Source: Solimonas fluminis (GTDB lineage Bacteria > Pseudomonadota > Gammaproteobacteria > Nevskiales > Nevskiaceae). From it: a stretch of DNA of 36,298 nt. A program made the position numbers and the translations under genes. A model generated the notes under the pieces. That model was given only the letters and a program-made list of their open reading frames with translations, was not told where the DNA came from and made no database searches. The stretch spans positions 1-36,298 of the forward strand of contig NZ_PSNW01000019.1 of assembly GCF_002930645.1 (NCBI RefSeq), given 5' to 3'. Shown one piece after another: positions 14,142-31,409 of the stretch (the first letter of the stretch is position 1; each line of letters opens with the position of its first letter).

Positions 14142-14169
14142 TGGACAATCAACATCAGTGTTGTATAAC
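14142..14169 (+). promoter_or_regulatory. Sigma70-type promoter of the E1/Rieske operon
   Basis: TGGACA (14142-14147) and TATAAC (14164-14169) are 16 nt apart, one mismatch each from the consensus hexamers. Transcription would start near 14176, about 20 nt before ATG 14197, whose ribosome site is AGGAGAG. The operator motif 14149-14162 fills the spacer, a position where a bound repressor would block RNA polymerase. Confidence 0.75.
14149..14162 (-). promoter_or_regulatory. Operator motif, copy 1 (AACAC-N3-TGTTGA)
   Basis: Read on the minus strand, this is AACACTGATGTTGA; on the plus strand, TCAACA-TCAG-TGTT. The palindromic core is TGTT/AACA around 4 nt, typical of a TetR-family site. The same pattern occurs at 31327-31340 and 31396-31409, each at a promoter. 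It sits between the -35 and -10 boxes. Confidence 0.6.
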
Positions 14170-14196
14170 GACGTGCACGCACAATGAGGAGAGTGC

Positions 14197-15177
14197 ATGA
14201 GCGCCAATCCTTCCTTCACCCCCGCGACCCTGCTGGCCATCTGGCGCAAGGCGCGGCAGATCAACCTGATCGACGAGAAGTTCCGCGGCCTGCTGCGTTC
14301 CGGTCGCCTCGCGGCGGTGTACTACTCGCCGCGCGGCCAGGAGATCCTGGCGGCGGCGATGGGCGTGCACCTTCAGCCCACGGACTATCTCGTCACCACC
14401 TACCGCGGCATCCACGACCAGCTGGCCAAGGGCATTCCGCTCAAGCCGCTGTTCGCGGAGTACTACGCCAAGGCCACCGGCGCCTGCAAGGGCAAGGGCG
14501 GCCCGATGCACATCACCCACCCGGAAACCGGCGTGATGGTGACCACCGGCATCGTCGGCAGCGGCCTGCCGATCGCCACCGGCCTTGGCTGGGCCTCCCA
14601 GCTCAAGAAGGACGGCCGCGTCACCCTGGTCACCTTCGGCGACGGCGCCTCCAACATCGGCGCCTTCCATGAGGCGCTCAACATGGCCGCGCTGTGGAAG
14701 CTGCCGGTGATCTTCCTGTGCCAGAACAACCTGTACGGCGAGTCCAGCAAGTACGCCAAGACCACTTCCGTCGACAACATCGGCGAGCGCGCCGCCAGCT
14801 ACAGGATGGCCGGCGTGACGGTCGACGGCAACGACGCCGAGGCCATGTGGCGCGCCGCCGGTGAAGCGGTGGCGCGTGCCCGCGCCGGCGAGGGTCCAAC
14901 CCTGATCGAGGCCGTGACCTTCCGCTTCATGGGCCACTACTTCGGCGACCCGGGCGCCTACATCCCGAAGGAGGAATACGAGGCCCACCTGGCGCGCGAC
15001 CCGATGCCGGCCACCCGCGCGGCCGTGCTGGCCAGCGGCGCCGCCACCGAGGCGGAACTGGACGCCTACGACGCCGAGGTCAGCGCGCAGATCGAAGAGG
15101 CCCTGCAGTTCGCCGCCGACAGCCCGTTCCCGGATGTCGGCGAGATCGATATCGACGTCTACGGAGCCGCCGCATGA
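14197..15177 (+). CDS. Thiamine-diphosphate 2-oxoacid dehydrogenase E1 alpha subunit
   Basis: This 326-residue subunit is of the pyruvate/acetoin/branched-chain dehydrogenase E1 alpha family, which decarboxylates a 2-oxo acid (or cleaves acetoin) on thiamine diphosphate. The cofactor motif starts at Gly148 (GDGASN) and ends at CQNN about 28 residues later. TYRGIHDQLAKG, GKGGPMHI and GIVGSGLPIATGLGWA are family marks. Length and the TYRG segment resemble acetoin-dehydrogenase-like E1. It is the first gene after the promoter at 14142 and overlaps E1 beta by 4 nt (ATGA). No E2 or E3 gene follows, only a lone lipoyl domain, so the true substrate is open. Confidence 0.92.
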   Translation: MSANPSFTPATLLAIWRKARQINLIDEKFRGLLRSGRLAAVYYSPRGQEILAAAMGVHLQPTDYLVTTYRGIHDQLAKGIPLKPLFAEYYAKATGACKGKGGPMHITHPETGVMVTTGIVGSGLPIATGLGWASQLKKDGRVTLVTFGDGASNIGAFHEALNMAALWKLPVIFLCQNNLYGESSKYAKTTSVDNIGERAASYRMAGVTVDGNDAEAMWRAAGEAVARARAGEGPTLIEAVTFRFMGHYFGDPGAYIPKEEYEAHLARDPMPATRAAVLASGAATEAELDAYDAEVSAQIEEALQFAADSPFPDVGEIDIDVYGAAA

Positions 15178-16202
15178 GCGCCCCTGCTACGGCTACGCAA
15201 GCCAAGCCCGAGGTCATCACCTTCACCGAAGCCTTCTCCCGTGCGCTGCACGACGCCATGGAGATGGACCCCAGCGTCATCATGCTGGGCGAGGACATCG
15301 CCGACGAGGAAGGCGGCGGCATCTTCAAGGTCACCAAGGGCCTGTCGACCAAGTTCGGCACCGAGCGCGTGAAGACCACGCCGATCTCCGAGCAGGCCAT
15401 CGTCGGCGCCGCCATCGGCGCCTCGCTGGCCGGCATGCGCCCGGTCGCCGAGATCATGCTGATGAACTTCATCACCGTGCCGATGGACCAGATCGTCAAC
15501 CATGCCGCCAAGCTGCGCTTCATGTCCGGCGGCCAGACGCACGTGCCGATCACCATCCGCACCCGCACCGGCGCCGGCGCCGGCACCGGCGGCCAGCATT
15601 CCGACATGCTCGAGGCCTGGTTCGCCCACGTGGCCGGCATGAAGGTGGTGGTGCCGTCGACCCCGGCGGATGCCTACGGCCTGCTGCTGGGCTGCATCTT
15701 CGACGACGACCCCTGCCTGTTCATCGAGGACCAGCTGACCCGCACCCAGACCGGCCCGGTGCCGGTGAAGGGCGAGATCATCCCCTTGGGCAAGGCGCAC
15801 GTCGCCCGCGAGGGCAAGGATGTCACCGTGGTCGGCTACGGCCGACCGATCCGCGACGCCATGGTGCTGGCCGACAAGCTGGCGGGCGAGGGCATCTCGG
15901 TGGAAGTGGTGGACCTGCGCACGGTCTCGCCGATGGACACCGGGACGGTGCTGAAATCCGTGGCCAAGACCGGCCGCGCCGTGGTGATCCACGAAGCTCC
16001 GCGCAGCTTCGGCTGCGGCGCCGAGATCGCGGCGCGCATCCAGGAAGAACTGTTCGACCAGCTCAAGGCGCCGGTGCTGCGCGTCGCTTCGCGCGACGTC
16101 ACCGTGCCGTTCTCGCGCGTGCTGGAAGCCGAGTACCTGTACAAGGCCAGCGGCATCGAGGCGGCCATCCGCCGGACGCTGGAAAAAAGGACCCAGAAAT
16201 GA
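15174..16202 (+). CDS. Thiamine-diphosphate 2-oxoacid dehydrogenase E1 beta subunit
   Basis: This 342-residue protein has the transketolase-like pyrimidine-binding domain followed by the C-terminal transketolase domain. Marks include VIMLGEDIADEEGGGIF, TPISEQAIVGAAIG with the Glu that activates the thiazolium ring, GGQHSDMLEAWFAHVAGMKVVVPS, and VVDLRTVSPMDT near the start of the C-terminal domain. It completes an alpha2beta2 E1 with the preceding gene. An Ala/Gly-rich run (GAGAGTGGQ near residue 140) comes from a GC-rich microrepeat but also occurs in relatives. Its end overlaps the lipoyl-domain gene by ATGA, so all three are made together. Confidence 0.93.
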   Translation: MSAPATATQAKPEVITFTEAFSRALHDAMEMDPSVIMLGEDIADEEGGGIFKVTKGLSTKFGTERVKTTPISEQAIVGAAIGASLAGMRPVAEIMLMNFITVPMDQIVNHAAKLRFMSGGQTHVPITIRTRTGAGAGTGGQHSDMLEAWFAHVAGMKVVVPSTPADAYGLLLGCIFDDDPCLFIEDQLTRTQTGPVPVKGEIIPLGKAHVAREGKDVTVVGYGRPIRDAMVLADKLAGEGISVEVVDLRTVSPMDTGTVLKSVAKTGRAVVIHEAPRSFGCGAEIAARIQEELFDQLKAPVLRVASRDVTVPFSRVLEAEYLYKASGIEAAIRRTLEKRTQK

Positions 16203-16429
16203 GCGTTGAAGTACGTATCCCGCAGATCGGATTCTCCACCCAGGAAGGCACGCTGACCGAGTGGCTGGTGGCCGACGGCGGCAAGGTGGAGGCGGGCAAG
16301 CCGCTGTATACCCTGGAGCTGGACAAGTCGGTGCAGGAGGTCGAGGCACCGGCCTCCGGCACCCTGAAGATCCACGCCGCGGTGGGCGAGGTCTATTCCG
16401 TCGGCCACCTGGTGGCCGAAATCGTCTGA
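16199..16429 (+). CDS. Free-standing lipoyl-domain protein (76 aa)
   Basis: The whole protein is one lipoyl/biotinyl attachment domain: IPQIGFSTQEGTLTEWLV, then the hairpin ELDKSVQEVEAP with Lys43 as the probable lipoylation site, then GHLVAEIV. Normal E2 proteins continue into an E3-binding domain and an acyltransferase core; both are absent because TGA follows at once. It overlaps E1 beta by ATGA and so is meant to be reductively acylated by this E1. A separate acyltransferase, or direct use of the acyl-lipoyl carrier, would be required. Biotin rather than lipoate is less likely next to an E1 and with DKS instead of MKM. Confidence 0.88.
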   Translation: MSVEVRIPQIGFSTQEGTLTEWLVADGGKVEAGKPLYTLELDKSVQEVEAPASGTLKIHAAVGEVYSVGHLVAEIV

Positions 16430-16460
16430 AGCAACCTGCCGGCGTGCAGGAGGAGAGCGC

Positions 16461-17885
16461 ATGAACACGACCGCGCAGAACAGCTGGCCGGAGAGCTGGC
16501 GGGTCCTCGAACACGGTATCCGCGCCGGTCGCTACACCGACCCGGCCTTTGCCCGCCTGGAGCACGAGAAGCTCTGGAGCCGCGTCTGGCAGGCCGCCGC
16601 GCGCCTGGACGAGATTCCGGAAAAGGGCGACCACACCACCTACGAGATCGGCGACCAGTCGGTGCTGATCGTCCGGGCCGACGCCGACACGGTCAAGGTC
16701 TACCACAACGTCTGTCCGCACCGCGGCACGGCGCTGTCCGAGGGCGGCGCCGGACACTTCAGGAACTGCAAGATCATCTGCCCCTTCCATGGCTGGCGCT
16801 GGAACCTGGAGGGGCAGAACGAGTATGTGCTGGAGCGCGGCGAGTTCCGCAACGGCCAGCTGCGCGACAGCGACGTCGCGCTGCGCGAGGTCCACCACGT
16901 GGTCTTCGCCGGCTTCATCTTCATCAACTTCGACCGCAACCCGCAGCCCTTCGACGAGTTCATCGCGCCGGTGCGCGCCCTGATCGAGGGACTGGCCATC
17001 GGCGACATGCGCCATTACTGGTGGAAGGCCCTGCCGGTGAAGTCCAACTGGAAGGTGGCCCAGGAGGCCTTCTTCGAGGGCTACCACGTGCCGGCCACGC
17101 ATCCGCAGCTGGAGCCGGATGCCGCCGACATCATCTACAACGGCACGCCCACCCCGGAGAGCGACCAGGGCTTCGCCCACCGCAACGTGGAGACGGAGAA
17201 TTTCGCCAACGGCCATGGCCGCTTCTTCGCCGGCAAGAAGACGCCGATGCAGGGCCACGTCAAGCAGAAGCACGGCGATCCGGTCGACATGATGGCCGAC
17301 CGCCTCAACCTGCTGGTCACCGGCATGGACGCCATGGTCCTCAAGGAGGATGTCGAGCTGGTGCGCTCGCTCAAGGGCAAGCCGATCCCCGAGGGATCGA
17401 GCCTGGGCGCCGAGTACGTCAAGGCGCTGTACACCACCGCCGCGATGCAGAAGCGCCCGATGCCCAAGCCGGTGCCGGAGATCCTCGGCATGTGGGGCGG
17501 CGAGATCTTCGTGTTCCCCAACCTGCTGATCCTGCCTCAGGCCGGCAACGCGATGATCTACCGCATCCGTCCGGACGGCTTCGACCCCGACAACTGCATC
17601 TTCGAGATCTTCTCCACCAAGACCTACCCGGCGGAAGCCAAGCCGCCGCGCGCGGTGGTCCAGAAGGTCACCGACGTGCTCGATCCCGAGCAGGTGCTGC
17701 TGATCCCGCGCCAGGACCTCGGCAACATCCCGCGCATGCAGCGCGGCCTTCACTCCCGCGGCTGCAAGCAGATCTGGCTTGCCGCCGACCAGGAAAAAAT
17801 GATCCTCAACATGCACCAGCAGCTCGACCTGTACCTGACCGACAGCCCTCCGGCCCCGCCGTCCGCCGGAGCTGCCGCCGCATGA
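16461..17885 (+). CDS. Rieske non-heme iron oxygenase, large (alpha) subunit
   Basis: This 474-residue ring-hydroxylating or monooxygenase-type subunit has a 2Fe-2S Rieske centre at Cys85-x-His87 (VCPHRGT) and Cys107-x2-His110 (CPFHGWRW). The catalytic iron site is in NWKVAQEAFFEGYHVPATHP, which holds the two His ligands; the Asp ligand lies in the C-terminal part. Oxygenases of this type put O2 into aromatic, steroid or terpenoid rings and need a reductase. No reductase or beta subunit is nearby. ATG 16461 follows AGGAGGAGAG. Its stop overlaps the fused dehydrogenase start (ATGA). Confidence 0.92.
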   Translation: MNTTAQNSWPESWRVLEHGIRAGRYTDPAFARLEHEKLWSRVWQAAARLDEIPEKGDHTTYEIGDQSVLIVRADADTVKVYHNVCPHRGTALSEGGAGHFRNCKIICPFHGWRWNLEGQNEYVLERGEFRNGQLRDSDVALREVHHVVFAGFIFINFDRNPQPFDEFIAPVRALIEGLAIGDMRHYWWKALPVKSNWKVAQEAFFEGYHVPATHPQLEPDAADIIYNGTPTPESDQGFAHRNVETENFANGHGRFFAGKKTPMQGHVKQKHGDPVDMMADRLNLLVTGMDAMVLKEDVELVRSLKGKPIPEGSSLGAEYVKALYTTAAMQKRPMPKPVPEILGMWGGEIFVFPNLLILPQAGNAMIYRIRPDGFDPDNCIFEIFSTKTYPAEAKPPRAVVQKVTDVLDPEQVLLIPRQDLGNIPRMQRGLHSRGCKQIWLAADQEKMILNMHQQLDLYLTDSPPAPPSAGAAAA

Positions 17886-20080
17886 ATTTCAACCTGTCCG
17901 AAGAGCAGGAGCTGATGCGCGAGACCTTCGCGCGCTTCCTGACCGAACAGAGCAGCATGCCGCGCGTGCGCGCCGCCATGCCTTCCGGCTTCGACGCCGC
18001 CCTGTGGAGCGGGCTGGCCGAGCTCGGCGCCTTCTCGATCCGCGTGCCGGAGGACGCCGGCGGCCTGGGCCTGGGACTGCTCGACGCCGCGCTGCTGATG
18101 GAGGAAACCGGGCGCACCCTGGCCTCCGGCCCCGTGGCCGAGACCCTGGTGGCCGCGCGACTGCTGGCCTTGCTGGGCGGGCAGGCCGAGCTGCTGGAGC
18201 GCGTGCTGTCCGGCTCCGCCGTGGTCAGCCTGGCCTTCCACGATCTTGCCAGCCGCCCCTCGCAGTGGGTGGCCGGCGGTGCCGTGGCCGAGGCGGTGAT
18301 CGCGCGCCAGGGCGGCGAGATCGTGCTGGTCACGCTGCCCGCCGGCGACAAGGGCGAGGACAATCTGGCTTCGACGCCGGTGGCCGAACTGCGGCTGGCG
18401 GAGTGGCCGCGCCGCGCGCTGGCCAGCGGCCCGCAGGGCCTCGCGCACTTCGAACAGGCCCGCGAGGAATGGAAGCTTCTGATCGGCGCCGCACTCGCCG
18501 GCCTGGGCCGCGAGGCCCTGCGCATGGCCGCGGCCTATGCCAGCGAGCGCAAGCAATTCGGCCAGTTCATCGGCCAGTTCCAGGCCATCTCGCACCCGCT
18601 GTCCGACCTGCTCTGCGAGGTCGACGGCGGCAAGTTCCTGGTATGGAAGGCGATCCGCCATATCGCCGACGGCGCTCCCGAATCCGCCGCGGCCGTGTCC
18701 GTGGCCGCCTGGTGGAACAGCGAAGCCGCCTCGCGCTCCGTGGCGCAGGCCCTGCACACCTTCGGCGGCTACGGCCTGACCACCGAGTACGACATCTTCC
18801 TGTTCAACCTGCGCGCCAAGGCCTGGCCGCTGGTGCTGGGCGATCCGCAGCGTCTGCTGGAGGAGGCCGGCCGCCGGCTCTATGCCGGCGAGAAGGCGGA
18901 ACTGCCGCGGGCCGGCGACTGCCCGATCGATTTCGACCTGGGCGCGGACGCCCGCGCCATCGCCGCGGAGATCGACGCCTTCTTCGAGAAGCACGTCACC
19001 CCGCAGATGCGAGAGAAGTTCCACTACAGCTGGGAAGGCTACAACCCGGAGATCCACCGCAAGCTGGCCCAGGAGAACCTGCTGTTCCCCGGCCTGCCCA
19101 AGGAGATGGGCGGGCGCGGCCTGTCGCCCTACGCCAAGATCGCGGCGATGGATGCCTTCGAGCACCAGGGCTACAACACCCCGGCGGCCAACGTCGCCCA
19201 GATGGTGGCCCTGATCATCCACCGCTTCGGCACCGACGAGCTGAAGCGCGAGGTACTGAGCAAGATCATGTCCGGCGAGGTGATCGCCAGCCTGGGCTAC
19301 TCCGAGCCCGGTTCGGGCTCGGACGTCTTCGCCGCGCAATGCAAGGCCACGCGCGACGGCGACGGCTGGCGCATCGACGGCACCAAGATGTTCACCAGCG
19401 GCGCGAACCTCGCGTCCTATGTGCTGATGCTCTGCCGCACCAATCCCGACGTGCCCAAGCACGCCGGCCTGACCATGTTCATCGTGCCGCTGAAGGCGCC
19501 CGGCGTGACCATCCAGCCGGTGTACACCTTCCAGGACGAGCGCACCAACATCACCTTCTACGACGGCGTGCGCATCCCCGACAGCTGGCGCCTGGGGGCC
19601 GTCGACGGCGGCGTGCGCACCATGAGCGCCAGCCTGGAACTGGAACACGGCGGCGGCTTCTCCAAGGTGCAGCGCGCCATGCTCAAGGCGGCCGAGGAAC
19701 TCTGCCGCGAGATCCGCCACGAGGGCCGCCCGCTGATCGAGGACCGCGCCGCCCAGGTGCGCCTGGCGCGCACCACGGCCAACCTCTGGGTGTCCGACGT
19801 GCTGGCCTTCCGCGCGCAGTGGACCATCGCCGAGAAGAAGCCGAACCACGCCTACGGCCCCATGGCCAAGCTGTTCTCCTCCGAGAAGTTCCTGACCGAC
19901 GCCCGCGACCTGCTGGACCTGACCGCGCCGCTGTCCCTGTCCAAGCGCAAGGGCGCTGCCGCGCTGGTCAACCAGTGCTATCGTCATGCGCACGGCACCA
20001 CGATTTACGGCGGCACCAGCGAAGTCCATCGCAGCATGATCGCCGAACGCGCGCTGGGCATGCCGCGCACCCGCGCCTGA
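17882..20080 (+). CDS. Fused double-domain acyl-CoA dehydrogenase (FadE34/ChsE3-like arrangement)
   Basis: This 732-residue chain contains two acyl-CoA dehydrogenase modules. The first (about 1-330) is the short partner type, with FSIRVPEDAGGLGLGL, ERKQFGQFIGQFQAI and TFGGYGLTTEYDIFLF. The second (about 350-732) is the full FAD type: ASLGYSEPGSGSDVFAAQ, DGTKMFTSGANLAS and the end TIYGGTSEVHRSMIAERALGM. Gly replaces the YEGT glutamate, while Glu588 in LELEHGG lies at the isovaleryl-type base position. In Mycobacterium, FadE34 has the same fused plan and acts on steroid side chains, where most such enzymes are made from two genes. It lies between the Rieske and hydratase genes in a tight operon. 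Confidence 0.9.
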   Translation: MNFNLSEEQELMRETFARFLTEQSSMPRVRAAMPSGFDAALWSGLAELGAFSIRVPEDAGGLGLGLLDAALLMEETGRTLASGPVAETLVAARLLALLGGQAELLERVLSGSAVVSLAFHDLASRPSQWVAGGAVAEAVIARQGGEIVLVTLPAGDKGEDNLASTPVAELRLAEWPRRALASGPQGLAHFEQAREEWKLLIGAALAGLGREALRMAAAYASERKQFGQFIGQFQAISHPLSDLLCEVDGGKFLVWKAIRHIADGAPESAAAVSVAAWWNSEAASRSVAQALHTFGGYGLTTEYDIFLFNLRAKAWPLVLGDPQRLLEEAGRRLYAGEKAELPRAGDCPIDFDLGADARAIAAEIDAFFEKHVTPQMREKFHYSWEGYNPEIHRKLAQENLLFPGLPKEMGGRGLSPYAKIAAMDAFEHQGYNTPAANVAQMVALIIHRFGTDELKREVLSKIMSGEVIASLGYSEPGSGSDVFAAQCKATRDGDGWRIDGTKMFTSGANLASYVLMLCRTNPDVPKHAGLTMFIVPLKAPGVTIQPVYTFQDERTNITFYDGVRIPDSWRLGAVDGGVRTMSASLELEHGGGFSKVQRAMLKAAEELCREIRHEGRPLIEDRAAQVRLARTTANLWVSDVLAFRAQWTIAEKKPNHAYGPMAKLFSSEKFLTDARDLLDLTAPLSLSKRKGAAALVNQCYRHAHGTTIYGGTSEVHRSMIAERALGMPRTRA

Positions 20081-20090
20081 GGAGAACGGG

Positions 20091-20903
20091 ATGTCCGAAG
20101 CACCGCACCTGCTGGTCGAGGAACAGGGCGCGATCCTGATCGCGACGCTGAACCGGCCGGAGAAGCTCAACGCGCTCAGTGCGCAGCTGATGGGCCTGTT
20201 CGAGCAGGCCCTGCACCGGTTCCGCGATACGCCGGAACTCAAGGTCATGCTGGTGCGCGCCACCGGCCGCTTCTTCTGCACCGGTGCCGACCTGCGCGGC
20301 GGCGACGGGCGCGCCGCGCCGGCCACCACCGGATCGGCCATCCGCGAGAACCACCGCATCCGCCTGAACGGCATGCACCGCATCTACGACGAAATGGAGG
20401 CCATCGAGAAGCCCATCGTCGTGGCGCACCACGCCACCTGCATGGGCGGCGGCCTCGAGCTGTCGCTGTCCTGCGATTTCCGCCTGGCGGCGAAGAGTGC
20501 GAGCTATGCCTTCCCCGAGGGCAAGTTCGGCGTGATCCCCGCCTCCAACGGCGTCAGCCGACTGGCCCGAATGGTCGGCACGCACTGGGCGCGCTACCTG
20601 ATCATGGCCAACCTGCCGGTGAACGCCGACCGCGCCCTGATGATGGGCCTGGTGCACGAGGTCTTCCCGGACGAGAGCTTCGAGGAAGACGTGATGAAGT
20701 TCTGCCGGCACCTGGCGGCGCAGAACGGCGAGCAGATGGGCACCGCCAAGCTGGCCATCGAGCTGGCCCGCGACGTGGGCCTGGCGCAGGCGCGCAATGT
20801 CGAGCGCATGGCCAACAGCGCGCTGATGCTCAACCCGGCGTACCTGGAGGGCATCCGGCGCTACGTCGAGGGGATCGGCAAGGGCAGCAAGGGCGGAGAT
20901 TGA
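20091..20903 (+). CDS. Enoyl-CoA hydratase/isomerase family protein
   Basis: This 270-residue crotonase-family protein has oxyanion segments RFFCTGADLRGG and ATCMGGGLELSLSCDF. A Glu at the first catalytic position lies in FPEGKFGVIPASNGVSRL. The second catalytic Glu position (near MVGTHWARYLIMANLPV) is not acidic, so the protein may be an isomerase or single-acid variant rather than a standard hydratase. It would act on the product of the fused acyl-CoA dehydrogenase 10 nt upstream. ATG 20091 follows GAGGAG. Confidence 0.88.
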   Translation: MSEAPHLLVEEQGAILIATLNRPEKLNALSAQLMGLFEQALHRFRDTPELKVMLVRATGRFFCTGADLRGGDGRAAPATTGSAIRENHRIRLNGMHRIYDEMEAIEKPIVVAHHATCMGGGLELSLSCDFRLAAKSASYAFPEGKFGVIPASNGVSRLARMVGTHWARYLIMANLPVNADRALMMGLVHEVFPDESFEEDVMKFCRHLAAQNGEQMGTAKLAIELARDVGLAQARNVERMANSALMLNPAYLEGIRRYVEGIGKGSKGGD

Positions 20904-20907
20904 ATCC

Positions 20908-20988
20908 GTCGTGCCGGAGCAAGCCGGCACCAGTCCCGGACGTCGGGTGCCCATTGCCTGACCGGGATGCCGCCTTCGCCGGCATGAC
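20908..20988. repeat. REP-like inverted pair
   Basis: GTCGTGCCGGAGCAAGCCGGC (from 20908 to about 20930) is followed in the opposite sense by a 25-nt palindrome, 20964-20988, running GGGATGCC to GGCATGAC. A related single copy lies at 23633-23659. Such GTC-(A/G)TGCCGG palindromes are common extragenic repeats in proteobacteria. It sits between the hydratase and aldo/keto reductase genes and could stabilise or separate the two parts of the transcript. Confidence 0.6.
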
Positions 20989-21019
20989 AGGGGTAAGAAA
21001 GGCCTTCCGGAGGAAACCG

Positions 21020-22075
21020 ATGCCCACGCAGCTCGATCACTACCGCCTGCTGGGCCATTCCGGCCTGCGCGTGTCGCCGCTGGCCCTGGGCACCATGACC
21101 TGGGGCGTCGGGCAGGGCTGGGGGACCGACGAGGCGGAGGCCCGCAGGATCCTGGACCTGTATGCCGGCCAGGGCGGCAACTCCATCGACACCGCCAACT
21201 TCTATGCCAACGGCGAGTCCGAGAGCATGATCGGACGTCTCGTGCAGGGACGGCGCAATCGCTTCGTCATCGCCAGCAAGTACTCCCTGAGCATGTCGCC
21301 GGGCGATCCCAACGCCAGCGGCAACCACCGCAAGAACATGCTCCAGTCGGTCGAGGCCAGCCTGCGACGGCTGGAAACCGACCACCTGGACCTGCTGTAC
21401 CTGCACGTCTGGGACCAGCGCACGCCGGTGGACGAAATCCTGCGTGCCTTCGACGACCTGGTGCGCGCCGGCAAGATCCTCTACATCGGCGTCTCGGACA
21501 CGCCGGCCTGGCAGGCCTCGCGCATGCAGGCCATCGCCGAGCTGCGCGGCTGGAGCCGGCTGGCGGCCCTGCAGATTCCCTACAACCTGACCGAGCGCAC
21601 GGTCGAGCGTGAGCTGATCCCCATGGCCGCGGCCATGGGCATGGGCGTGCTGCCCTGGTCGCCGCTGGCGGGCGGGGTGCTGTCCGGCAAGTACCGGCAG
21701 GACGACCTTTCCGCCGACCGCTCCGCGATGAATTCGCGCAGGAACATCAATGTCGCGACCGGCCGGCTCAGCGAGCGGACGCTGGGCATCGCGGCGCAGG
21801 TCACGGCCGTGGCGGGCGAGATCGGCTGCACGCCGGCGCAGGCGGCACTGGCCTGGACCCTGCTGAACCCGGCCGTGACCTCGCCGATCCTGGGCACGCG
21901 CACGGTGGCGCAGCTGCAGGACAACCTCCAGGCGCTGGAGGTGAGCTTCAGCGCCGCGCAGATCGACCGGCTCGACGCCGCCAGCCGCATCGATCTCGGC
22001 TTCCCGCACGAGTTCCTGGGCTCGGGCGTGATCGGGCCGATGTTCGGCAACGTCAAGGTGGCGGTGCGCCCATGA
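21020..22075 (+). CDS. Aldo/keto reductase
   Basis: This 351-residue TIM-barrel NADPH-dependent oxidoreductase shows the catalytic tetrad Asp and Tyr in IDTANFYANGESE, Lys in VIASKYSL and His in LYLHVWDQ. Further marks are IGVSDTPAWQ, the coenzyme-site stretch GVLPWSPLAGGVLSGKY and the C-terminal PILGTRTVAQLQDNL. It reduces a carbonyl or oxidises an alcohol of unknown substrate. ATG 21020 was chosen over an upstream in-frame start because GGAGGAAACC precedes it and the upstream part is REP sequence. The stop overlaps the ligase start by 4 nt. Confidence 0.92.
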   Translation: MPTQLDHYRLLGHSGLRVSPLALGTMTWGVGQGWGTDEAEARRILDLYAGQGGNSIDTANFYANGESESMIGRLVQGRRNRFVIASKYSLSMSPGDPNASGNHRKNMLQSVEASLRRLETDHLDLLYLHVWDQRTPVDEILRAFDDLVRAGKILYIGVSDTPAWQASRMQAIAELRGWSRLAALQIPYNLTERTVERELIPMAAAMGMGVLPWSPLAGGVLSGKYRQDDLSADRSAMNSRRNINVATGRLSERTLGIAAQVTAVAGEIGCTPAQAALAWTLLNPAVTSPILGTRTVAQLQDNLQALEVSFSAAQIDRLDAASRIDLGFPHEFLGSGVIGPMFGNVKVAVRP

Positions 22076-23628: not shown

Positions 23629-23632
23629 GGAC

Positions 23633-23659: not shown

Positions 23660-23670
23660 CGCCTTCTCTC

Positions 23671-24408: not shown

Positions 24409-24433
24409 GTGCTGCTCCGTTACGAAGGGAGAA

Positions 24434-24853
24434 TCAGCCGCGCGGCTTCAGGATCTTCCAGATGCCGTCGACGCTGGCGACCGTCCGCTCGCCGACGCCG
24501 ATGAGCCCGCGCAGGAATACGAGGTCCGAACTCCGCCGCAGTACCTGCGGGCGGCAGACGATGAATTCTCCGACCTTGGCCGCGGAGATGAACTGGGTCT
24601 GCAGCTGCGCGGTGACGCAGTTCATCGCGCCGAGCTGCTGGATCACGGCGTAGCCCAGGCTGACGTCGGCAAGGGTCAGCAGCATGCCGCCGTGCACCGT
24701 GCTCATGTGTCCGTTGACGTGCGGCTGGCCGGAAACGAAGCCGACTTCCAGCTCCGGCAGCTTGCCCCGCGTCCAGAGACCACCGGAAACGCGAGAGAAG
24801 CCGTCGATGTCCAGCCGGGTCCAGCCTTCCGCCGCCAGGTTCTCCGGTGTCAC
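24434..24853 (-). CDS. Hotdog-fold thioesterase, PaaI type
   Basis: This 139-residue single hotdog domain has the typical HVNGHMSTVHGGMLLTLAD segment with the HGG turn, then TAQLQTQFISAAKVGE and a final strand. PaaI-like proteins release CoA from acyl- or aryl-CoA and often relieve CoA trapping in catabolic clusters. The start is GTG 24853, 3 nt after the stop of the upstream acyl-CoA dehydrogenase, so translation is coupled. Its substrate is unknown. Confidence 0.88.
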   Translation of the reverse strand: MTPENLAAEGWTRLDIDGFSRVSGGLWTRGKLPELEVGFVSGQPHVNGHMSTVHGGMLLTLADVSLGYAVIQQLGAMNCVTAQLQTQFISAAKVGEFIVCRPQVLRRSSDLVFLRGLIGVGERTVASVDGIWKILKPRG

Positions 24854-24856
24854 GGT

Positions 24857-25762
24857 TCAGTGACCGAAGGCATGCCGTGCCACGGCCAGGGCCTGCCCGC
24901 CGCGGCCGCCGAGTTCGGAGACCAGGGCCTTGAGGCGGTAAGTCCAGAGATGCAGGGGGTGTTCCAGGGTCATGCCCATGGCGCCGAGCATCTGGTGCAG
25001 GTCGTAGGCGATGCGGGTGGCGCTCTCCTGTGCGTGCAGGGCCGCCAGCGCGGCGTCGGCGGGGTCGCCGGTGGCGGCGGCCTTCAGGGCCAGCCAGCGG
25101 ACGCCGCCGGCCAGCACGGTGCATTCCGCCATGCGGTGCCGCAAGGCCTGGAAGCTGCCCAGCGGGCGGCCGAACTGCTTGCGCACGCTCAGGTGCTCGC
25201 CGGCCGAGGCGATGGCGGCCTGCAGCAGGCCCGTGGCCTCGGCCGCCAGGGCGACACGCAGCCAGGTCCGCACACTGGCCGCGTCCTCGGCGGACAGCAC
25301 GGTGGCGGCGGGGCGGCGCTTGAGCCGGCCCATCGGGTAGGCGAACAGGGATTCCGCGGGCTCGACATCGCCGGGCGTCACCCGTGCCAGGCTGACCTGG
25401 TCGCCGTCGATCAGGATCAGGGTTTTCGCGGTGGCGACGAAGCGTCCCGGCCGGCCGTTCTCGACCACCGCGATCGGCCGCGGCCATTCGCCGGGCAGTT
25501 GCGGCCGCACCAGCATCGACAGCGCGGTGTCGACGGTGCAGGGCAGCCAGGCCAGGCGCTCCACGGCCATCGCCGCGGTCAGCGAACCCAGTTCGGGCAC
25601 CTGGGCGATGTCGAAGTAGCCCCCGTCGTCGAGTTCACATTCCAGGCCGTCGCCGGCCAGCGCGAAGCCATGGAAATCGATGGGCCTGAACTCGAAGGGC
25701 TTGGCCAGCCGGTCGAGGGCGCTCATCAGCGCGGACTGGTCGGTTGTGAGCGTGAAGTCCAT
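24857..25762 (-). CDS. Acyl-CoA dehydrogenase, smaller partner subunit
   Basis: This 301-residue truncated-type acyl-CoA dehydrogenase is shorter than normal (about 380). The N-terminal helical domain is largely lost and the middle domain is divergent. The C-terminal domain is clear: HLSVRKQFGRPLGSFQALRHRMAE and LGAMGMTLEHPLHLWTYRLKAL. It corresponds to the small member of alpha2beta2 acyl-CoA dehydrogenases and overlaps its probable partner (25762-26898) by one base, the two codons sharing ATGA. The pair resembles 9453/10655 in logic, but the small subunit is shorter. Confidence 0.87.
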   Translation of the reverse strand: MDFTLTTDQSALMSALDRLAKPFEFRPIDFHGFALAGDGLECELDDGGYFDIAQVPELGSLTAAMAVERLAWLPCTVDTALSMLVRPQLPGEWPRPIAVVENGRPGRFVATAKTLILIDGDQVSLARVTPGDVEPAESLFAYPMGRLKRRPAATVLSAEDAASVRTWLRVALAAEATGLLQAAIASAGEHLSVRKQFGRPLGSFQALRHRMAECTVLAGGVRWLALKAAATGDPADAALAALHAQESATRIAYDLHQMLGAMGMTLEHPLHLWTYRLKALVSELGGRGGQALAVARHAFGH

Positions 25763-26898
25763 CAGCGGGGCTCCCGCGGAAGCTGCAGCAGTTCCGTGGC
25801 GATCAGGTTGAGCTGGATCTCGGCGGCGCCGGAGGCGATGCCGGCGACGATGGCGCGCTGGTGGTGCGCCAGCAGCAGAGGGTCGCCTCCCGACAGCGCT
25901 TCGGGCAGGTGCTCGACGACGAACTCTCCGACCAGGCGCTCGCACATGACCGTGGCATAGCGCGCGGCGCTGGCTTCGGGGCCGGTGGGCGTGCCGTGGC
26001 GGCGCTGGTCGACGATCTGGTAGCTGTACAGGCGGGCCGCCTCGCAGGCGGCATGGGCGCGGGCCGACTGCTCGACGGCACCGTGGCCGTAGCGGCCCTC
26101 GCGGCGCAGGCGCTCGACGGCGCGGCGCAGCATGCGCGAGGCCAGCGCGAAGCGGGGGATGCCGACGCGTTCCAGCGACAGAGCCGCACGGGCAATCTCC
26201 CAGGCCTGGCCCTCGGCGCCCAGCAGCGCGCTTTCCGGCACCCGCACGTCGTCGAAGAACACCTCGTGGATGTCGCCCTCGCCGATGACGCTGGGAATCT
26301 GGCGCACGGTGATGCCCGGCGTGTCCATCGGTACCAGGAATACCGACATGCCGGTCTTGCCGGGCGCGGTGCGCGCCAGCAGGAAGCAGGTATCGGCATG
26401 GCCGGCGTAGGAGGTCCAGATCTTCTGGCCGCTGATGCGGTAGAAACCGCCATCCTTCTCCGCGCGGGTGCGCAGCGAGGCGAGGTCGGACCCGGCTTCG
26501 GGTTCGGAGAAGCCCTGGCACCAGAGGGTCTCTCCGCGCGCGATCGGGGGGATGTAGCGGGCCTGCTGCGCCTCGCTGCCGAAGCGCATCAGCACGGGGC
26601 CGATCCAATTGACGTTCATGTACTGGCCGCCACGCGGCTCGCCCGCGGCCCACATCTCCTCGGCCAGGATGAAGGCGGTCCAGGCGTCGGCATCGCGGCC
26701 GCCCCAGCGCTGCGGCCAATGCGGCACCAGCAGGCCGGCCTCGGCCAGCGCGCCGCAGAACTTCTTGGAGAAGGCGCTCTGCGACTCCGAGCCCGGGCCA
26801 TGGGCCTGGGCCTCCCAGTCGGCAGGCAGGTTCGCGGCGAGGAAGGCCCGGACCGTGTCGCGGAAGGACTGCTGCTCAGCGTCCCACTGGAAATCCAT
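25762..26898 (-). CDS. Acyl-CoA dehydrogenase, larger subunit of second heteromeric pair
   Basis: This 378-residue subunit has CQGFSEPEAGSDLASLRTRA, SGQKIWTSYAGHAD and the middle-domain strand GEGDIHEVFFDDVRVPE. The C-terminal signature reads IASGAAEIQLNLIATELL, so the YEGT glutamate is missing, while Glu243 in LSLERVGI stands at the alternative base position. It would pair with the next gene on the minus strand. ATG 26898 follows GGGAG. It lies 28 nt after the aldehyde dehydrogenase, in the same minus-strand unit. A bulky acyl-CoA substrate is inferred from the subunit type. Confidence 0.9.
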   Translation of the reverse strand: MDFQWDAEQQSFRDTVRAFLAANLPADWEAQAHGPGSESQSAFSKKFCGALAEAGLLVPHWPQRWGGRDADAWTAFILAEEMWAAGEPRGGQYMNVNWIGPVLMRFGSEAQQARYIPPIARGETLWCQGFSEPEAGSDLASLRTRAEKDGGFYRISGQKIWTSYAGHADTCFLLARTAPGKTGMSVFLVPMDTPGITVRQIPSVIGEGDIHEVFFDDVRVPESALLGAEGQAWEIARAALSLERVGIPRFALASRMLRRAVERLRREGRYGHGAVEQSARAHAACEAARLYSYQIVDQRRHGTPTGPEASAARYATVMCERLVGEFVVEHLPEALSGGDPLLLAHHQRAIVAGIASGAAEIQLNLIATELLQLPREPR

Positions 26899-26926
26899 CA
26901 GGCTCGCTCCCGAGTGTTCTTTATTT

Positions 26927-28357
26927 CTACAAGCCGAGGCACAGGTACTTGATCTCCAGGTAGTCGTCGATGCCGTACCGGGAGCCCTCGCGGCCGAGGC
27001 CCGAGGCCTTGACGCCGCCGAAGGGCGCCAGCTCCGTGGAGATCAGGCCGGTGTTGACGCCGACGATGCCGGCCTCGATGCGCTCGGCCACGCGCCAGAT
27101 GCGGCCGATGTCGCGGGCGTAGAAGTAGGCGGCCAGGCCGAAGGGCGTGGCGTTGGCCTGCGCCACCGCATCGTCCTCGTCGCGGAAGCGGAACACCGGA
27201 GCCAGCGGGCCGAAGGTCTCCTCGCGGGCCACCAGCATCTCGGCCGTGGCACCGGTCAGCAGGGTCGGGGTGAAGAAGCGCCCGCCGCGCGCATGCGGCA
27301 TGCCGCCCGTCAGGACCCGGGCGCCCTTGGCGGTGGCATCGCCGATGTGCTCGCGTACCTTGGCCAGGGCCTTGTCGTCGATCAGCGGGCCGATCTCGGT
27401 GCCCGCCTCGGTGCCGGCGCCGACCTTCAGCGCCGCGGTGGCGGCGGCCAGCCTCTCCACGAAGGCGTCGTGGATGCCGGCCTGGGCATAGATGCGGTTG
27501 GCGCAGACGCAGGTCTGGCCGGCGTTGCGGAACTTGGATTGGATGGCGCCGGCCACGGCCGCGTCGAGGTCGGCATCATCGAAGACGATGAAGGGCGCGT
27601 TGCCGCCCAGTTCCAGGCTCAGCTTCTTGATCGTCGGCGCGCTCTGTTCGTAGAGCTTCGCGCCGATCTCGGTGGAGCCGGTGAAGGACAGCTTGCGCAC
27701 CTTGTCGCTGGCGGTCAGGGTGTCGCCGATCTCGGCGGCGCTGCCGGTGACCACGTTGAGCAGGCCCGCGGGCAGGCCGGCCTCGCCGGCCAGCGCACCG
27801 AGCGCGAGCGCGGTGAACGGGGTCTGCGACGCCGGCTTGACCACCACGCCGCAGCCGGCCGCCAGGGCCGGGCCGATCTTGCGCGTGATCATCGCCGCCG
27901 GGAAGTTCCAGGGCGTGATCGCCGCCACCACGCCGATGGGCTGCTTCAGCACCACGATGCGCTTGTCCGGCGCGTGGCTGGGGATCACGTCGCCGTAGAC
28001 CCGCTTGGCCTCCTCGGCGAACCACTCGATGAAACTCGCGGCATAGGCGATTTCGCCGCGGGCCTCGGCCAGGGGCTTGCCCTGCTCCTGCGTCAGCAGG
28101 GCGGCGAGTTCTTCCTGCCGTGCCATGATCAGGTCGTGGTAGCGGCGCAGGATGCGGGAACGCTCCTTGCCGGTCAGGCGCGACCAGGGACCCATGGCCT
28201 GTTCGGCAGCGTCGATGGCGCGGCGGGTCTCGGCGGCGCCCAGGCGCGGCACGCGGCCGATCACCGCGCCGGTAGCCGGATCGTCGACCTCGATCCAGCG
28301 CTCGCCGCTGACCCATTCGCCGCCGATCAGGCAGGCTTCCCGCTTCAGGCTCGTCAT
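26927..28357 (-). CDS. gabD: Succinate-semialdehyde dehydrogenase-type aldehyde dehydrogenase
   Basis: This 476-residue NAD(P)-dependent enzyme oxidises an aldehyde to the acid. The catalytic Cys283 lies in NAGQTCVCANR, whose paired cysteines are the hallmark of succinate-semialdehyde dehydrogenases. The general base Glu249 lies in LELGGNAP. Other marks are ITPWNFP, KPASQTP, SFTGSTEIG and SELAPFGG-like TELAPFGGVKASGLGREGS. Length fits GabD. In this context it may instead handle a pathway aldehyde, for instance one released by the aldolase-like protein at 34252. The ribosome site is weak. Confidence 0.87.
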   Translation of the reverse strand: MTSLKREACLIGGEWVSGERWIEVDDPATGAVIGRVPRLGAAETRRAIDAAEQAMGPWSRLTGKERSRILRRYHDLIMARQEELAALLTQEQGKPLAEARGEIAYAASFIEWFAEEAKRVYGDVIPSHAPDKRIVVLKQPIGVVAAITPWNFPAAMITRKIGPALAAGCGVVVKPASQTPFTALALGALAGEAGLPAGLLNVVTGSAAEIGDTLTASDKVRKLSFTGSTEIGAKLYEQSAPTIKKLSLELGGNAPFIVFDDADLDAAVAGAIQSKFRNAGQTCVCANRIYAQAGIHDAFVERLAAATAALKVGAGTEAGTEIGPLIDDKALAKVREHIGDATAKGARVLTGGMPHARGGRFFTPTLLTGATAEMLVAREETFGPLAPVFRFRDEDDAVAQANATPFGLAAYFYARDIGRIWRVAERIEAGIVGVNTGLISTELAPFGGVKASGLGREGSRYGIDDYLEIKYLCLGL

Positions 28358-28495
28358 GCCGCGATCTTATCGGCAGGCAGGCGGGGCCTCGGGCCTATTG
28401 CATGCGCAGGCACATCATGGGTCATCGACAGGACAAGCCGAGGCGGGAAGGGCGGAGGCCCACCGGGCGTCCACCCCGCCGAAGGCCTCGCTGCA

Positions 28496-29563
28496 CTACG
28501 CGGCCTTGCGCAGCTCCAGCCGGCGCCGGTAGCCCTGCGGCGTGGAGCCGGTCCAGCGCTTGAAGGCGCGGCCGAAGCTCGATTGCTCCGAGTAGCCCAG
28601 CATGGCGGCCAGTTCGTCCAGCGCCACCTCGCTGGCCTGCAGGCAACTCTCGGCCAGTTCCCGGCGCTGGCGCTCCACGATCTCCGAGAAGCGCAGGCCG
28701 TGGCCGCTGAGGCTGGCCTGCAGCGTGCGGACCGGGATGCCCATCTTGCCGGCGCAGTGCTCGATCGAGCACTTGCCGGACGACAGGGAGCCGCGCACAT
28801 AGTCCTCCACGCGCTCGACGATGCCCTGGCGAGAGGCATTGCGGACCCGCTCGAAGTAGCCGCCCAGCAGGCGGAACAGCAGGCGGTTGGCGCTGGCCAC
28901 CGGCTGGTCGAGCACGGCGCTGGGGAAGGCGATGACGCTGACCTCGGCGCGCGGGCGGAACTCGCAGCCGAAGAATCTCGCGATCTCCGGAAGGTCCTTC
29001 TGCCTGGCGTCGATGCGCAGCCCGACGTAGCGCGGCTTGAAGGAGCGCCCGGCAAGCTGGCGCAGCAGCTTCATCGTCATCAGCGTGCCCTTGTAGCTGG
29101 CCTGGTCGGCGGCGCCCGGGTCGCTCTGCACGCGCCAGCGCAGCTCGGCGAGCTCGGGACCTTCCACCAGCTCCATCGCCACCAGCGGGCAGTGCACCAC
29201 CGGGATGTAGTCGATGAAGCAGGCCAGCGCCTCGCGGAAGCTGGACGCGGAGCGGCACAGCGTGGCGATGGCGCCGAAGGTGTCCGGATCCTGGAACTCG
29301 CCCAGGCGCAGGCCGAACAGGGGATCGTTGAAGGCGCGGCTGCAATGCTCCATCAGCTGCACCAGGCCCTTGCTGTCGATATAGGCATCCGGATCGCGCA
29401 TCGCCCGTGGGTCGATGCCGTGCCGCTCCAGCAGCTCGCGAGGATCGGCACCGAGGCCGCGCACCAGGTCGCCGAAGCCGGCGAGGTTGGCGGCGCGGAT
29501 CTGGAGGCCGACCGGCACCGTGTCCAGAGGGCCCTCGAGGCTGTAGAAGAATGCTTCGCTCAT
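28496..29563 (-). CDS. AraC-family regulator with arabinose-binding-like N-domain
   Basis: This 355-residue protein has an N-terminal domain of the Arabinose_bd/OruR type: IRAANLAGFGDLVRGLG, then DPLFGLRLGEFQDPDTFGA. The C-terminal AraC helix-turn-helix contains CAGKMGIPVRTLQASLSGHG and LDELAAMLGYSEQSSFGRAFKRWTG. ATG 29563 was chosen over an upstream in-frame start because GGAGAGCGGCG precedes it. It lies 19 nt after the KstD-like gene and probably shares its transcript, so an activator made with the enzymes it controls is likely. The ligand is unknown; the AACA-N4-TGTT sites look more like TetR than AraC sites. Confidence 0.9.
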   Translation of the reverse strand: MSEAFFYSLEGPLDTVPVGLQIRAANLAGFGDLVRGLGADPRELLERHGIDPRAMRDPDAYIDSKGLVQLMEHCSRAFNDPLFGLRLGEFQDPDTFGAIATLCRSASSFREALACFIDYIPVVHCPLVAMELVEGPELAELRWRVQSDPGAADQASYKGTLMTMKLLRQLAGRSFKPRYVGLRIDARQKDLPEIARFFGCEFRPRAEVSVIAFPSAVLDQPVASANRLLFRLLGGYFERVRNASRQGIVERVEDYVRGSLSSGKCSIEHCAGKMGIPVRTLQASLSGHGLRFSEIVERQRRELAESCLQASEVALDELAAMLGYSEQSSFGRAFKRWTGSTPQGYRRRLELRKAA

Positions 29564-29582
29564 CGCCGCTCTCCTTCGTTGC

Positions 29583-31265
29583 TCAGTCCGTCGTCGCGCC
29601 CAGTGCATGCCGGGCCGCGACATAGCCCCAGGTCATCGCTGGCCCGATGCTGCCGCCGGCCCCGGGCTCCACTCCGCCCATGACCGAGGCGCTGGAGCTG
29701 CCGGTGGCGTACAGGCCCGGGATCGCCGAACCGTCCGTCCGCAGCACCCGTGCCTGAGCGTCGGTCAGCAGGCCGCCGAAGGTGCCGACGTCGCCGGGGT
29801 AGAGCTGCACGGCATGGAAGGGCCCCTGCTCGATCGTGCCCAGCGTGTTCGAGGGGGTGTGCAAGGGGTCGCCCACCCAGCGGTCGTAGGCCGAATCGCC
29901 GCGGCGGAAGTCCTCGTCGCGGCCCTGGCGCACGAAGCCGTTGAAGCGTTCCACGGTCGCGCGCAGCGTGGCGGCGTCGATGCCGCAGTCCGCGGCCAGC
30001 GCTTCCAGCGTGGCGCCGCTGCGCAGGAAGTTCGCCTCCGCCCAGGCCTTGGGCTTCTTCCTGCCCGGCATCGTGCCGGCCAGCATGTACTTGCCCAGGT
30101 ACTGGCTGTCGAACACCATCCAGCTCGGTATGGCCGGCGCCTTGCGGGCGTGTTCCATCATGCGTTCGCTGAACTCGGGATGGGAGGAGGATTCCCGCGC
30201 ATAGCGGCGGCCGGCCTGGTCCACCACGATCGCATGCGGCTTGCAGACGTCGTTCTGCATCGCCGCCTTGATCATCATCTTCTCGCTGCCCGGCGGCAGC
30301 GCGATCTCCATGCCGATGCGCTCGCCCATCTGCGCCAGTGCGGCGCCGATGCGCTCGCCTTCCTCGATCATCTCGCCGGTATCGGCCTCGATGGCGCTGG
30401 ACCAGGCGGCGGAGGTGCCGGGGATGTAGCGATCCAGCATGCGCTGGTTGCGGGCGAAGCCGCCGGCATTGATCAGCACGCCCAGGGTGGCGGCGACCGC
30501 CTGCTCCCGGCCCTTCCGGACGAGCCGTACGCCGCTGGCGCGGCCGTCCTGCAGGAGGATCTGCCTCACCTCGGCCTCCAGCCAGATCTCGACGCCGGCC
30601 TGCAGCGCGGCATGAAGCAGCTGGCCCTGCAGGGCCTGGCCGGCGGTGCTGCGCTGGCGGCCGGTGAGCTTGTCGGCGACGGCGCGTCCGAGGATGCGCA
30701 GCAGTGTCTTCCTGGCCTCGCCGCTGCGCTTGACCAGCGGCAGTTGCATGGCCTCGTCGAGGTTGGCGGGCAGGGGCAGGAAGCCGGGGCGCAGCTTCTT
30801 GCGCCAGTCGCCGAGCCGGCGGATGTCGAACAGCTCCGACACCACGGCGCGGCCGGGCACCGAGGCGCCGGGAGCGTCGTAGTAGTCGGGCCAGGACGGA
30901 ATGCGGCGGAACTTCAGGCCCTGTTCCGCCAGGAAGTCGATCATGCGCGGCGCCTGCTCGACATAGGCCAGGCGGCGCTCGCGGCAGGCCCCCGGCATGT
31001 CCGGACGCTCGCCGATCACCGCGTCGAGATAGGCCGTGGCCTGCTCCGCGCTGTCCTCGATGCCCGCCTGCTTCATGTAGCGGTTGGCCGGAATCCACAT
31101 CACGCCGCCGGAAATGGCGGTGGTGCCGCCCACCAGGGCGGTCTTCTCCAGCACCAGCACGCGCTTGCCGGCCTTGCGCAGCACCAGGGCGGCGCACATC
31201 GAGCCGGCACCGCTGCCGACGATGACGAAATCGAAGCTCTGCGGCGGGGCGCCGTTGCTGTCCAT
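29583..31265 (-). CDS. KstD-like FAD-dependent dehydrogenase (3-oxosteroid 1-dehydrogenase family)
   Basis: This 560-residue flavoprotein has the FAD loop at residues 17-21 in VIVGSGAGS, VLEKTALVGGTTAISGG and the closing motif GLYATGSSSASVMGG. It belongs with 3-ketosteroid delta-1-dehydrogenases and fumarate-reductase-type flavoproteins. Two residues that make KstD act on steroids appear changed. The Tyr in the KstD YPGAG motif is Glu533 here (VEPGAGG), and the Tyr expected after RYxxES seems to be His (RESSSH). It may desaturate a different ketone or perform another redox step. ATG 31265 follows GGAGGAAGG; an earlier ATG at 31334 overlaps the operator. It leads the minus-strand operon. Confidence 0.85.
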   Translation of the reverse strand: MDSNGAPPQSFDFVIVGSGAGSMCAALVLRKAGKRVLVLEKTALVGGTTAISGGVMWIPANRYMKQAGIEDSAEQATAYLDAVIGERPDMPGACRERRLAYVEQAPRMIDFLAEQGLKFRRIPSWPDYYDAPGASVPGRAVVSELFDIRRLGDWRKKLRPGFLPLPANLDEAMQLPLVKRSGEARKTLLRILGRAVADKLTGRQRSTAGQALQGQLLHAALQAGVEIWLEAEVRQILLQDGRASGVRLVRKGREQAVAATLGVLINAGGFARNQRMLDRYIPGTSAAWSSAIEADTGEMIEEGERIGAALAQMGERIGMEIALPPGSEKMMIKAAMQNDVCKPHAIVVDQAGRRYARESSSHPEFSERMMEHARKAPAIPSWMVFDSQYLGKYMLAGTMPGRKKPKAWAEANFLRSGATLEALAADCGIDAATLRATVERFNGFVRQGRDEDFRRGDSAYDRWVGDPLHTPSNTLGTIEQGPFHAVQLYPGDVGTFGGLLTDAQARVLRTDGSAIPGLYATGSSSASVMGGVEPGAGGSIGPAMTWGYVAARHALGATTD

Positions 31266-31326
31266 CTGTCCTTCCTCCGGTTCGCCGCGGGTGCCGGCGC
31301 CTGCAGGGGCGGGCCGGTCGTTGATA

Positions 31327-31340
31327 AACACCATTGTTGA
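31327..31340 (+). promoter_or_regulatory. Operator motif, copy 2 (AACAC-N3-TGTTGA)
   Basis: AACACCATTGTTGA has the same AACA-N4-TGTT core as the other two copies. It lies 62 nt upstream of the KstD-like start on the minus strand. A weak minus-strand promoter may overlap it: TTGACC at 31357-31362 and AACAAT at 31333-31338 with an 18-nt spacer. Confidence 0.6.
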
Positions 31341-31395
31341 TTGATTGTGCCGCCGTGGTCAAGTGCCCTGCCGGCCTGGAACAATCCTCTTTATG

Positions 31396-31409
31396 AACAC
31401 CACTGTTGA
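31396..31409 (+). promoter_or_regulatory. Operator motif, copy 3 (AACAC-N3-TGTTGA)
   Basis: AACACCACTGTTGA overlaps the -35 box of the ferredoxin promoter and is embedded in a longer inverted repeat AACAC/GTGTT (31396-31414). With copy 2 it forms two direct repeats 69 nt apart in the divergent region. Flanking bases also agree (AT(A/G)AACACCA). Confidence 0.6.

Follow-up and report, generated by a model that had tools for sequence, protein, structure and literature searches.

A palindromic operator shared by catabolic promoters of Solimonas fluminis and its candidate TetR-family repressor

Three known systems come closest to the one considered here. In mycobacteria, the KstR regulon is marked by the operator TnnAACnnGTTnnA (AAC-N2-GTT) (PMC1995591). 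In Caenibius tardaugens, a steroid degradation cluster is controlled by the TetR-like repressor EdcR, whose proposed operator, TnnCnnTACnAnTnGTAnnGnnA, is a palindrome over the -10 box (PMC8700777). AtuR/RdmA, a TetR repressor of a terpene-type catabolic operon in Pseudomonas, has two inverted-repeat sites 40-42 bases apart and the operator AGCAAGCGCTTGG (PMC9973270). Our subject is a palindromic motif with the core AACA-N4-TGTT, which occurs at three catabolic promoters in a 36,298-nucleotide stretch of the Solimonas fluminis genome (contig NZ_PSNW01000019.1; the window). The genome comprises 4,668,848 bases and is labeled G000; contigs carry C-numbers (the window is C11) and extracted loci L-numbers. 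Among the other genomes, G049 is taken as Solimonas sp. BWSM_106, G039 as Sinimarinibacterium flocculans, G024 as a Nevskia metagenome-assembled genome (MAG), and G062 as a Salinisphaerales MAG.

The KstR system shares several features with the one here: a TetR repressor (here a candidate, which we call TetR-A), a short palindrome that recurs at numerous intergenic promoters of lipid- or steroid-type catabolism, overlap of the motif with the -10 element, and one divergent intergenic region with two copies (PMC1995591). The differences are the spacing, AAC-N6-GTT here versus AAC-N2-GTT in KstR, and the phylum; the comparison with KstR covers the operators. The KstR-like spacing (no base between TCAACA and TGTTGA) was found nowhere in the examined stretches of S. 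fluminis, G048, and G049, and once in the other TetR-A and kstD loci. The proposed EdcR site likewise lies on the -10 of a steroid-type catabolic promoter, with a different operator, and was reported for a single cluster (PMC8700777), while AtuR/RdmA shares a TetR repressor of a comparable pathway and two inverted repeats, with another motif (PMC9973270). A search of the open-access literature for the motif written with N found no paper on it. The sites appear to define a new regulon of a known kind, comparable to that of KstR with another operator.

The first-pass annotation of the window had reported three copies of AACAC-N3-TGTTGA, and exact matches were found at all three positions: 14149-14162 (minus strand), 31327-31340 (plus), and 31396-31409 (plus). 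The core it had proposed, AACA-N4-TGTT, is an exact palindrome at every one of them. Extended to 16 bases, each site is one mismatch from TCAACA-N4-TGTTGA (TCAACANNNNTGTTGA):

14149..14164, no strand: operator 1, TCAACATCAGTGTTGT, on the -10 and start of the promoter of the E1-alpha/E1-beta/lipoyl/Rieske operon; exact match
31325..31340, no strand: operator 2, TAAACACCATTGTTGA, over the putative kstD -10; exact match
31394..31409, no strand: operator 3, TGAACACCACTGTTGA; its right arm also serves as the putative ferredoxin -35; exact match

With up to two mismatches, AACAC-N3-TGTTGA has seven matches in the window against a shuffle mean of 2.13, and none of 100 shuffles reached seven. The count of AACANNNNTGTT with at most one mismatch was reached by eight shuffles. 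The statistics of the window by itself are therefore modest and would not prove more than chance, so the motif was tested on the whole genome, with the same pattern read backwards as the chance control (reversed control). In S. fluminis, AACANNNNTGTT occurs at 21 places versus 2 for the control, and three of the 21 lie deeper than 40 bases within a called gene. The longer TCAACANNNNTGTTGA occurs at 10 places with at most one mismatch (control, 2) and at 54 with two mismatches (control, 14). Rather than being scattered within genes at chance frequency, all 10 of the closer matches are intergenic; the noncoding share of the examined stretches, which were chosen around sites, is 12.9%. The motif is a real operator and not a chance pattern, and its regulon is larger than the three operons of the first-pass annotation. 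Seven sites lie beyond those of the window:

C8:13613, ahead of a LysR gene
C8:23579, ahead of an AraC gene
C8:106670, ahead of an aldehyde dehydrogenase gene
C9:30007, ahead of an SDR gene
C15:4167, between divergent coenzyme A (CoA)-transferase and SDR genes
C15:10354, ahead of a gene with no Pfam match at 1e-8
C23:12969, ahead of an XdhC-like gene

A weight matrix was trained on 22 sites from three genomes, namely all 10 from S. fluminis, 10 of the 11 from G048 (the L154 site was left out), and 2 of the 10 from G049 (the other 8 repeat S. fluminis promoters). Its consensus is TAATCAACA-N-Y-R-N-TGTTGATTA, and the window sites are close to TAATCAACA-N4-TGTTGATTA.

In relatives, sites are present at the promoters of the same operons in G049, G048, G037, Sinimarinibacterium, and several MAGs, extending as far as Salinisphaerales and Steroidobacter; the absence upstream of these operons that would have counted against the first-pass proposal was not observed. 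Operator 1 is kept ahead of E1-alpha in G049, G048, and G037, and operator 2 in G049, G048, and Sinimarinibacterium. In S. fluminis and the latter three, operators 2 and 3 are spaced 69-71 bases apart. All eight aligned genomes, chosen for having one, carry a site at the place of operator 3, and the ferredoxin-side site is also present in G056 and in the Nevskia, Salinisphaerales, and Steroidobacter MAGs. In the aligned promoters, the sites are kept while the flanking sequence drifts. Judged by the KstD protein, the nearest named relatives are Solimonas sp. BWSM_106 (88%), Sinimarinibacterium flocculans (74%), and the Nevskia MAG (74%), and the same arrangement is present in a named strain, S. 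flocculans DSM 104150. In G048, the divergent neighbor of kstD is the P450 gene itself (59% identical), with no ferredoxin gene between.

Within the genus, matches with at most one mismatch numbered 11 in G048 (reversed control, 0), 10 in G049 (control, 1), and 2 in G050 (control, 2). G050, in which TetR-A is absent at E <= 1e-40 and the site count equals the control, constitutes a natural negative. A dense part of the regulon was also seen in G048 (C1:4303719-4320129; L157 and L158), where ∼17 kb around a TetR-A copy contain three sites with no more than one mismatch plus two with two mismatches.

The promoter elements in the window are as follows:

14121..14126, plus strand: E1 promoter -35, TTTACA, with a 17-base spacer; GCCTTTACAG is invariant in all four aligned E1 promoters
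14144..14149, plus strand: E1 promoter -10, GACAAT (GATAAT in G048); its last base is common to operator 1
31333..31338, minus strand: putative kstD -10, AACAAT, inside operator 2; consensus match only
31357..31362, minus strand: kstD -35, TTGACC; GGTCAAG is present in G000, G049, G048, and Sinimarinibacterium
31406..31411, plus strand: putative ferredoxin/P450 -35, TTGAGT, read from sequence
31429..31434, plus strand: putative ferredoxin/P450 -10, GATAAA, 17 bases on (TTGAGT-N17-GATAAA), read from sequence

In the aligned E1 promoters, GACAAT, GATAAT, or GAAAAT comes 17 or 18 bases after the invariant GCCTTTACAG, and its final base starts the palindrome. On the ferredoxin side, GATAAA lies 3' of the site in six of eight aligned sequences, the exceptions being G048 and G086. 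The first-pass placements of the kstD site at its promoter and of the ferredoxin site over the -35 agree with these positions; the E1 site, which had been placed between the -35 and -10, instead begins with the final base of the -10 and extends over the start region. Of 56 listed sites, 10 have an exact TTTACA or TTGACA beginning 25-31 bases upstream, versus none of 56 at a control distance; the 56 sites were hand-picked and include orthologous copies, so they are not independent. The other 46 lack an exact TTTACA or TTGACA, and a -35 at 25-31 bases is therefore one promoter class. Because the sites cover core promoter elements (the -10 and start, or the -35), steric repression is the natural reading of how they would act.

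Two genes outside the window encode the regulator that is probably responsible:

C15:318-1010: TetR-A; PF00440 TetR_N, 48.6 bits (cut-off, 24)
C8:98977-99636: TetR-A paralogue, 71% identical to the C15 copy; PF00440 TetR_N, 47.4 bits (cut-off, 24)

We note that the end of C8 and the start of C15 carry the same amidohydrolase-like fragment, and the assembly may be broken there at a repeated gene.

TetR-A, counted as present at E <= 1e-40, occurs in 13 of 85 genomes of the order. Strict sites (TNAACANNNNTGTTNA) numbered 69 in these 13 genomes against 4 for the reversed control, compared with 32 against 35 in the 72 lacking it. Three or more strict sites were found in 10 of the 13 genomes with TetR-A versus 3 of the 72 without (Fisher, 2.3e-8, which relatedness among the genomes keeps from being a clean probability). 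Strong sites, defined by a matrix score of at least 20, numbered 33 in 316 kb around 18 TetR-A genes from genomes outside the training set and were present at 12 of these loci. By contrast, 20 other TetR genes that we chose in G000 and G048 from the list of TetR_N matches had no strong site in their 400 kb of surroundings; at a matrix score of 15, the counts were 44 and 1, respectively. Among 27 kstD loci (L093, the G049 contig; L094 to L101, compared in full; L115 to L119, scanned once; the mycobacterial L102 to L114, left out), strong sites occurred in four of the eight compared in full, and all four genomes have TetR-A. Loci L096 to L098, from genomes with only distant TetR-A relatives (E of 1e-16 to 2e-20), have no strong sites, and the scan of L115 to L119 gave two matches with two mismatches, both in L118.

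The recognition helix of TetR-A, VNRGTAY(Q/H)HF, is found in 24 of 24 copies with the single Q/H variation, and the commonest residue has a mean share of 0.88 across the DNA-binding domain versus 0.69 after it. Matches to NCBIfam and PDB entries lie mainly in the DNA-binding domain, far below the NCBIfam cut-offs. Autoregulation is frequent among TetR-family repressors, though not universal. Upstream of the 24 copies, the 16-mer matches with zero mismatches in G045 and one in G086, both within 300 bases, and with two at -384 in G062; the 13-mer matches with one mismatch in G037 and G091 and with two in G027 and G048. The remaining copies had no upstream match with up to two mismatches. A site lies directly downstream of TetR-A in G039, G024, G027, and G086. 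Two copies are present in each of G000, G048, G049, G039, and G024, and four in G027; in the Steroidobacter MAG, six strong sites lie in the 20 kb of one of two copies and none in that of the other. A class-wide search found TetR-A in 1 of 369 genomes, which was S. fluminis itself, and is uninformative. The evidence supports the first-pass proposal of a TetR-type operator common to the E1/Rieske, KstD, and ferredoxin/P450 promoters with a repressor gene outside the window, and TetR-A is probably the protein that binds these operators.

Several observations weigh against this assignment. TetR-A travels with catabolic clusters, and such co-occurrence is also expected of a target or a neighbor. 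Because co-occurrence by itself cannot separate a regulator from a linked target, we hold the assignment as probable rather than firm. G040 and G041 have TetR-A and no strict site, G037 has two strict sites, and 6 of the 18 TetR-A loci lack a strong site. Conversely, G058, G063, and G068 each have three strict sites without TetR-A (controls, 1, 2, and 0). The contrast between genomes with and without TetR-A weakens once one mismatch is allowed: those without it include G032 (12 versus 3 in the control), G006 (11 versus 0, with 5 being one repeated sequence), G043 (11 versus 3), and G004 (8 versus 1). In G049, 3 of the 11 strict matches (C26, C59, and C60) look like one repeat. Neither TetR-A copy of S. 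fluminis has a site directly ahead of it with up to two mismatches, although only 317 upstream bases of the C15 copy are on the contig. In Novosphingobium malaysiense, TetR-A is present (2e-70), yet no strong site was found in its kstD locus or around TetR-A. Finally, site-bearing loci hold several TetR genes, and a second one, TetR-C, also adjoins sites.

TetR-C (C23:6227-6865 in G000; C1:4259575-4260216 in G048) is the strongest rival to TetR-A, and its binding of the operator seems an unlikely alternative. It starts across the site from E1-alpha, divergently, in G048 (L200) and G037 (L205), stands beside a weaker two-mismatch site in the Nevskia MAG (G024; L206), and lies near TetR-A in G062 (L237). 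Present at E < 1e-60 in 9 of 58 family genomes, it coincides with at least three strict sites in 8 of these. As sole regulator, however, TetR-C is disfavored by G056, which has no TetR-C match at E <= 0.001 and still carries six strict sites (controls, 2) and six strong sites in one 20-kb stretch. The TetR-C gene of S. fluminis itself has no site in the 1.5 kb ahead of it (L203).

Binding by some other regulator, such as TetR-B (C15:8872-9477), with TetR-A just a linked gene, is less plausible again. The genome holds 61 TetR_N matches, and TetR-B or a homologue accompanies sites in stretches of C15, C8, and Nevskia. In a genome of a different named group (Steroidobacter; L234), sites nevertheless cluster around TetR-A. 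They show no such clustering around the 20 other TetR genes examined, which are part of the TetR set of G000 and G048.

The first-pass annotation had also raised the AraC-type protein encoded in the window:

28496..29563, minus strand: AraC-type regulator; Pfam Arabinose_bd and HTH_18; 19 bases after kstD

That this protein or its relatives bind the motif as activator or autoregulator is very doubtful. Sites do immediately precede AraC genes at C8:23579, in G048 (L153:8193), and in Sinimarinibacterium (L099:11681), where the orthologue of the window protein (70% identical) has its own site ahead. These genes are of two types, however, that of the window and Sinimarinibacterium and that of L018 and L153, which are 27-31% identical and have different helix-turn-helix sequences behind the same motif. 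Sites of AraC-type proteins are usually direct repeats, upstream of or over the -35; the motif here is an inverted repeat over the -10 and start (E1 and kstD) or the -35 (ferredoxin). AraC proteins were thus set aside as binders and look like targets instead, that is, second-tier members of the regulon. The window gene, 19 bases after kstD, is therefore probably under operator 2 on the same transcript. Chance palindromes, for which the eight shuffles reaching the AACANNNNTGTT count in the window might speak, are hardly credible given the genome-wide and cross-genome excess, the intergenic placement, and the base-level conservation.

The sites are most likely on/off switches on degradation-gene promoters of Solimonas-type bacteria, run by a TetR-type protein encoded elsewhere in the genome. 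Repressors of the TetR family bind as dimers and are released by a ligand. A TetR-A dimer, from the C15 or C8 copy, would bind TCAACA-N4-TGTTGA and block RNA polymerase by covering the -10 and start at the E1 and kstD promoters or the -35 at the ferredoxin/P450 promoter. Release would come from a pathway compound or its CoA thioester, opening the E1/Rieske operon, kstD-araC, and the ferredoxin/SDR/P450/thiolase unit together with promoters at the seven other sites. With AraC-type activators inside the regulon, its derepression would set off local activation as well. More tentatively, TetR-A paralogues with the same recognition helix and diverged sensor domains may share one operator set, so that several intermediates open the same regulon, N4 versus the rarer N1 spacing tunes which promoters respond, and AraC proteins form a second tier. 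If true, this would amount to a multi-input repressor gate over the whole cyclic-hydrocarbon or steroid-type catabolic network of Nevskiales-type bacteria and Steroidobacter.

A motif found by eye has thereby become a testable regulon, with one operator, one main candidate repressor, 10 sites in its own genome, and counterparts at the orthologous promoters of other genera and of MAGs from Salinisphaerales and Steroidobacter. The regulon would group dispersed P450, Rieske, KstD-like, acyl-CoA, and CoA-transferase genes in one coordinated program, which should aid the search for the substrate. The principal genes behind the window sites are as follows:

14197..15177, plus strand: E1-alpha subunit, first gene of the E1/Rieske/acyl-CoA operon; Pfam E1_dh, 8.5e-73
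16461..17885, plus strand: Rieske oxygenase alpha subunit; Pfam Ring_hydroxyl_A and Rieske
29583..31265, minus strand: KstD-like FAD dehydrogenase; NCBIfam PRK12844, 2e-183, below its cut-off
31490..31690, plus strand: ferredoxin, first gene of the ferredoxin/SDR/P450/thiolase unit; Pfam Fer4_15, 5.2e-13
32596..33843, plus strand: CYP101-like cytochrome P450; best PDB match, CYP101J2, 7.7e-63

The best PDB match of the KstD-like protein is 7p18, a 3-oxosteroid 1-dehydrogenase (1.3e-95). The longest kstD open reading frame spans 29583-31334, with its ATG at 31334 inside operator 2; orthologues align from 31265, which is likely the start. The CYP101-like P450, the KstD-like enzyme, and the acyl-CoA, thiolase, Rieske, and CoA-transferase genes point to catabolism of a cyclic terpenoid, a steroid, or a related alicyclic compound.

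The palindrome with a 1-base spacer (TCAACA-N-TGTTGA), a spacing 3 bases off the main class, is also enriched, with 5, 4, 2, and 13 copies versus 0 in the controls of four sets. Part of these are embedded in the 16-mer, and six of eight stand-alone copies are intergenic (L236:9822, L237:8498, L243:9720, L244:9525, L247:5594, and L094:3235, all in TetR-A or kstD loci). Those of L236 and L243 lie directly upstream of TetR-A. At C12:545351-545386 of S. fluminis (L024:8352 and 8376), the region separating a TetR gene from a divergent lipoprotein-like gene holds two AACA-N4-TGTT palindromes at a distance of 24 bases, each ending in TGTTAC, which are possibly a private operator of that TetR. At C9:41656-41671 (L022:5656), TCAACAATGATGTTAC lies between a divergent TetR gene and a transporter-like operon, apparently for RND efflux; the site is kept in G049 (L164:2538) and may be the site of another repressor that resembles the main motif.

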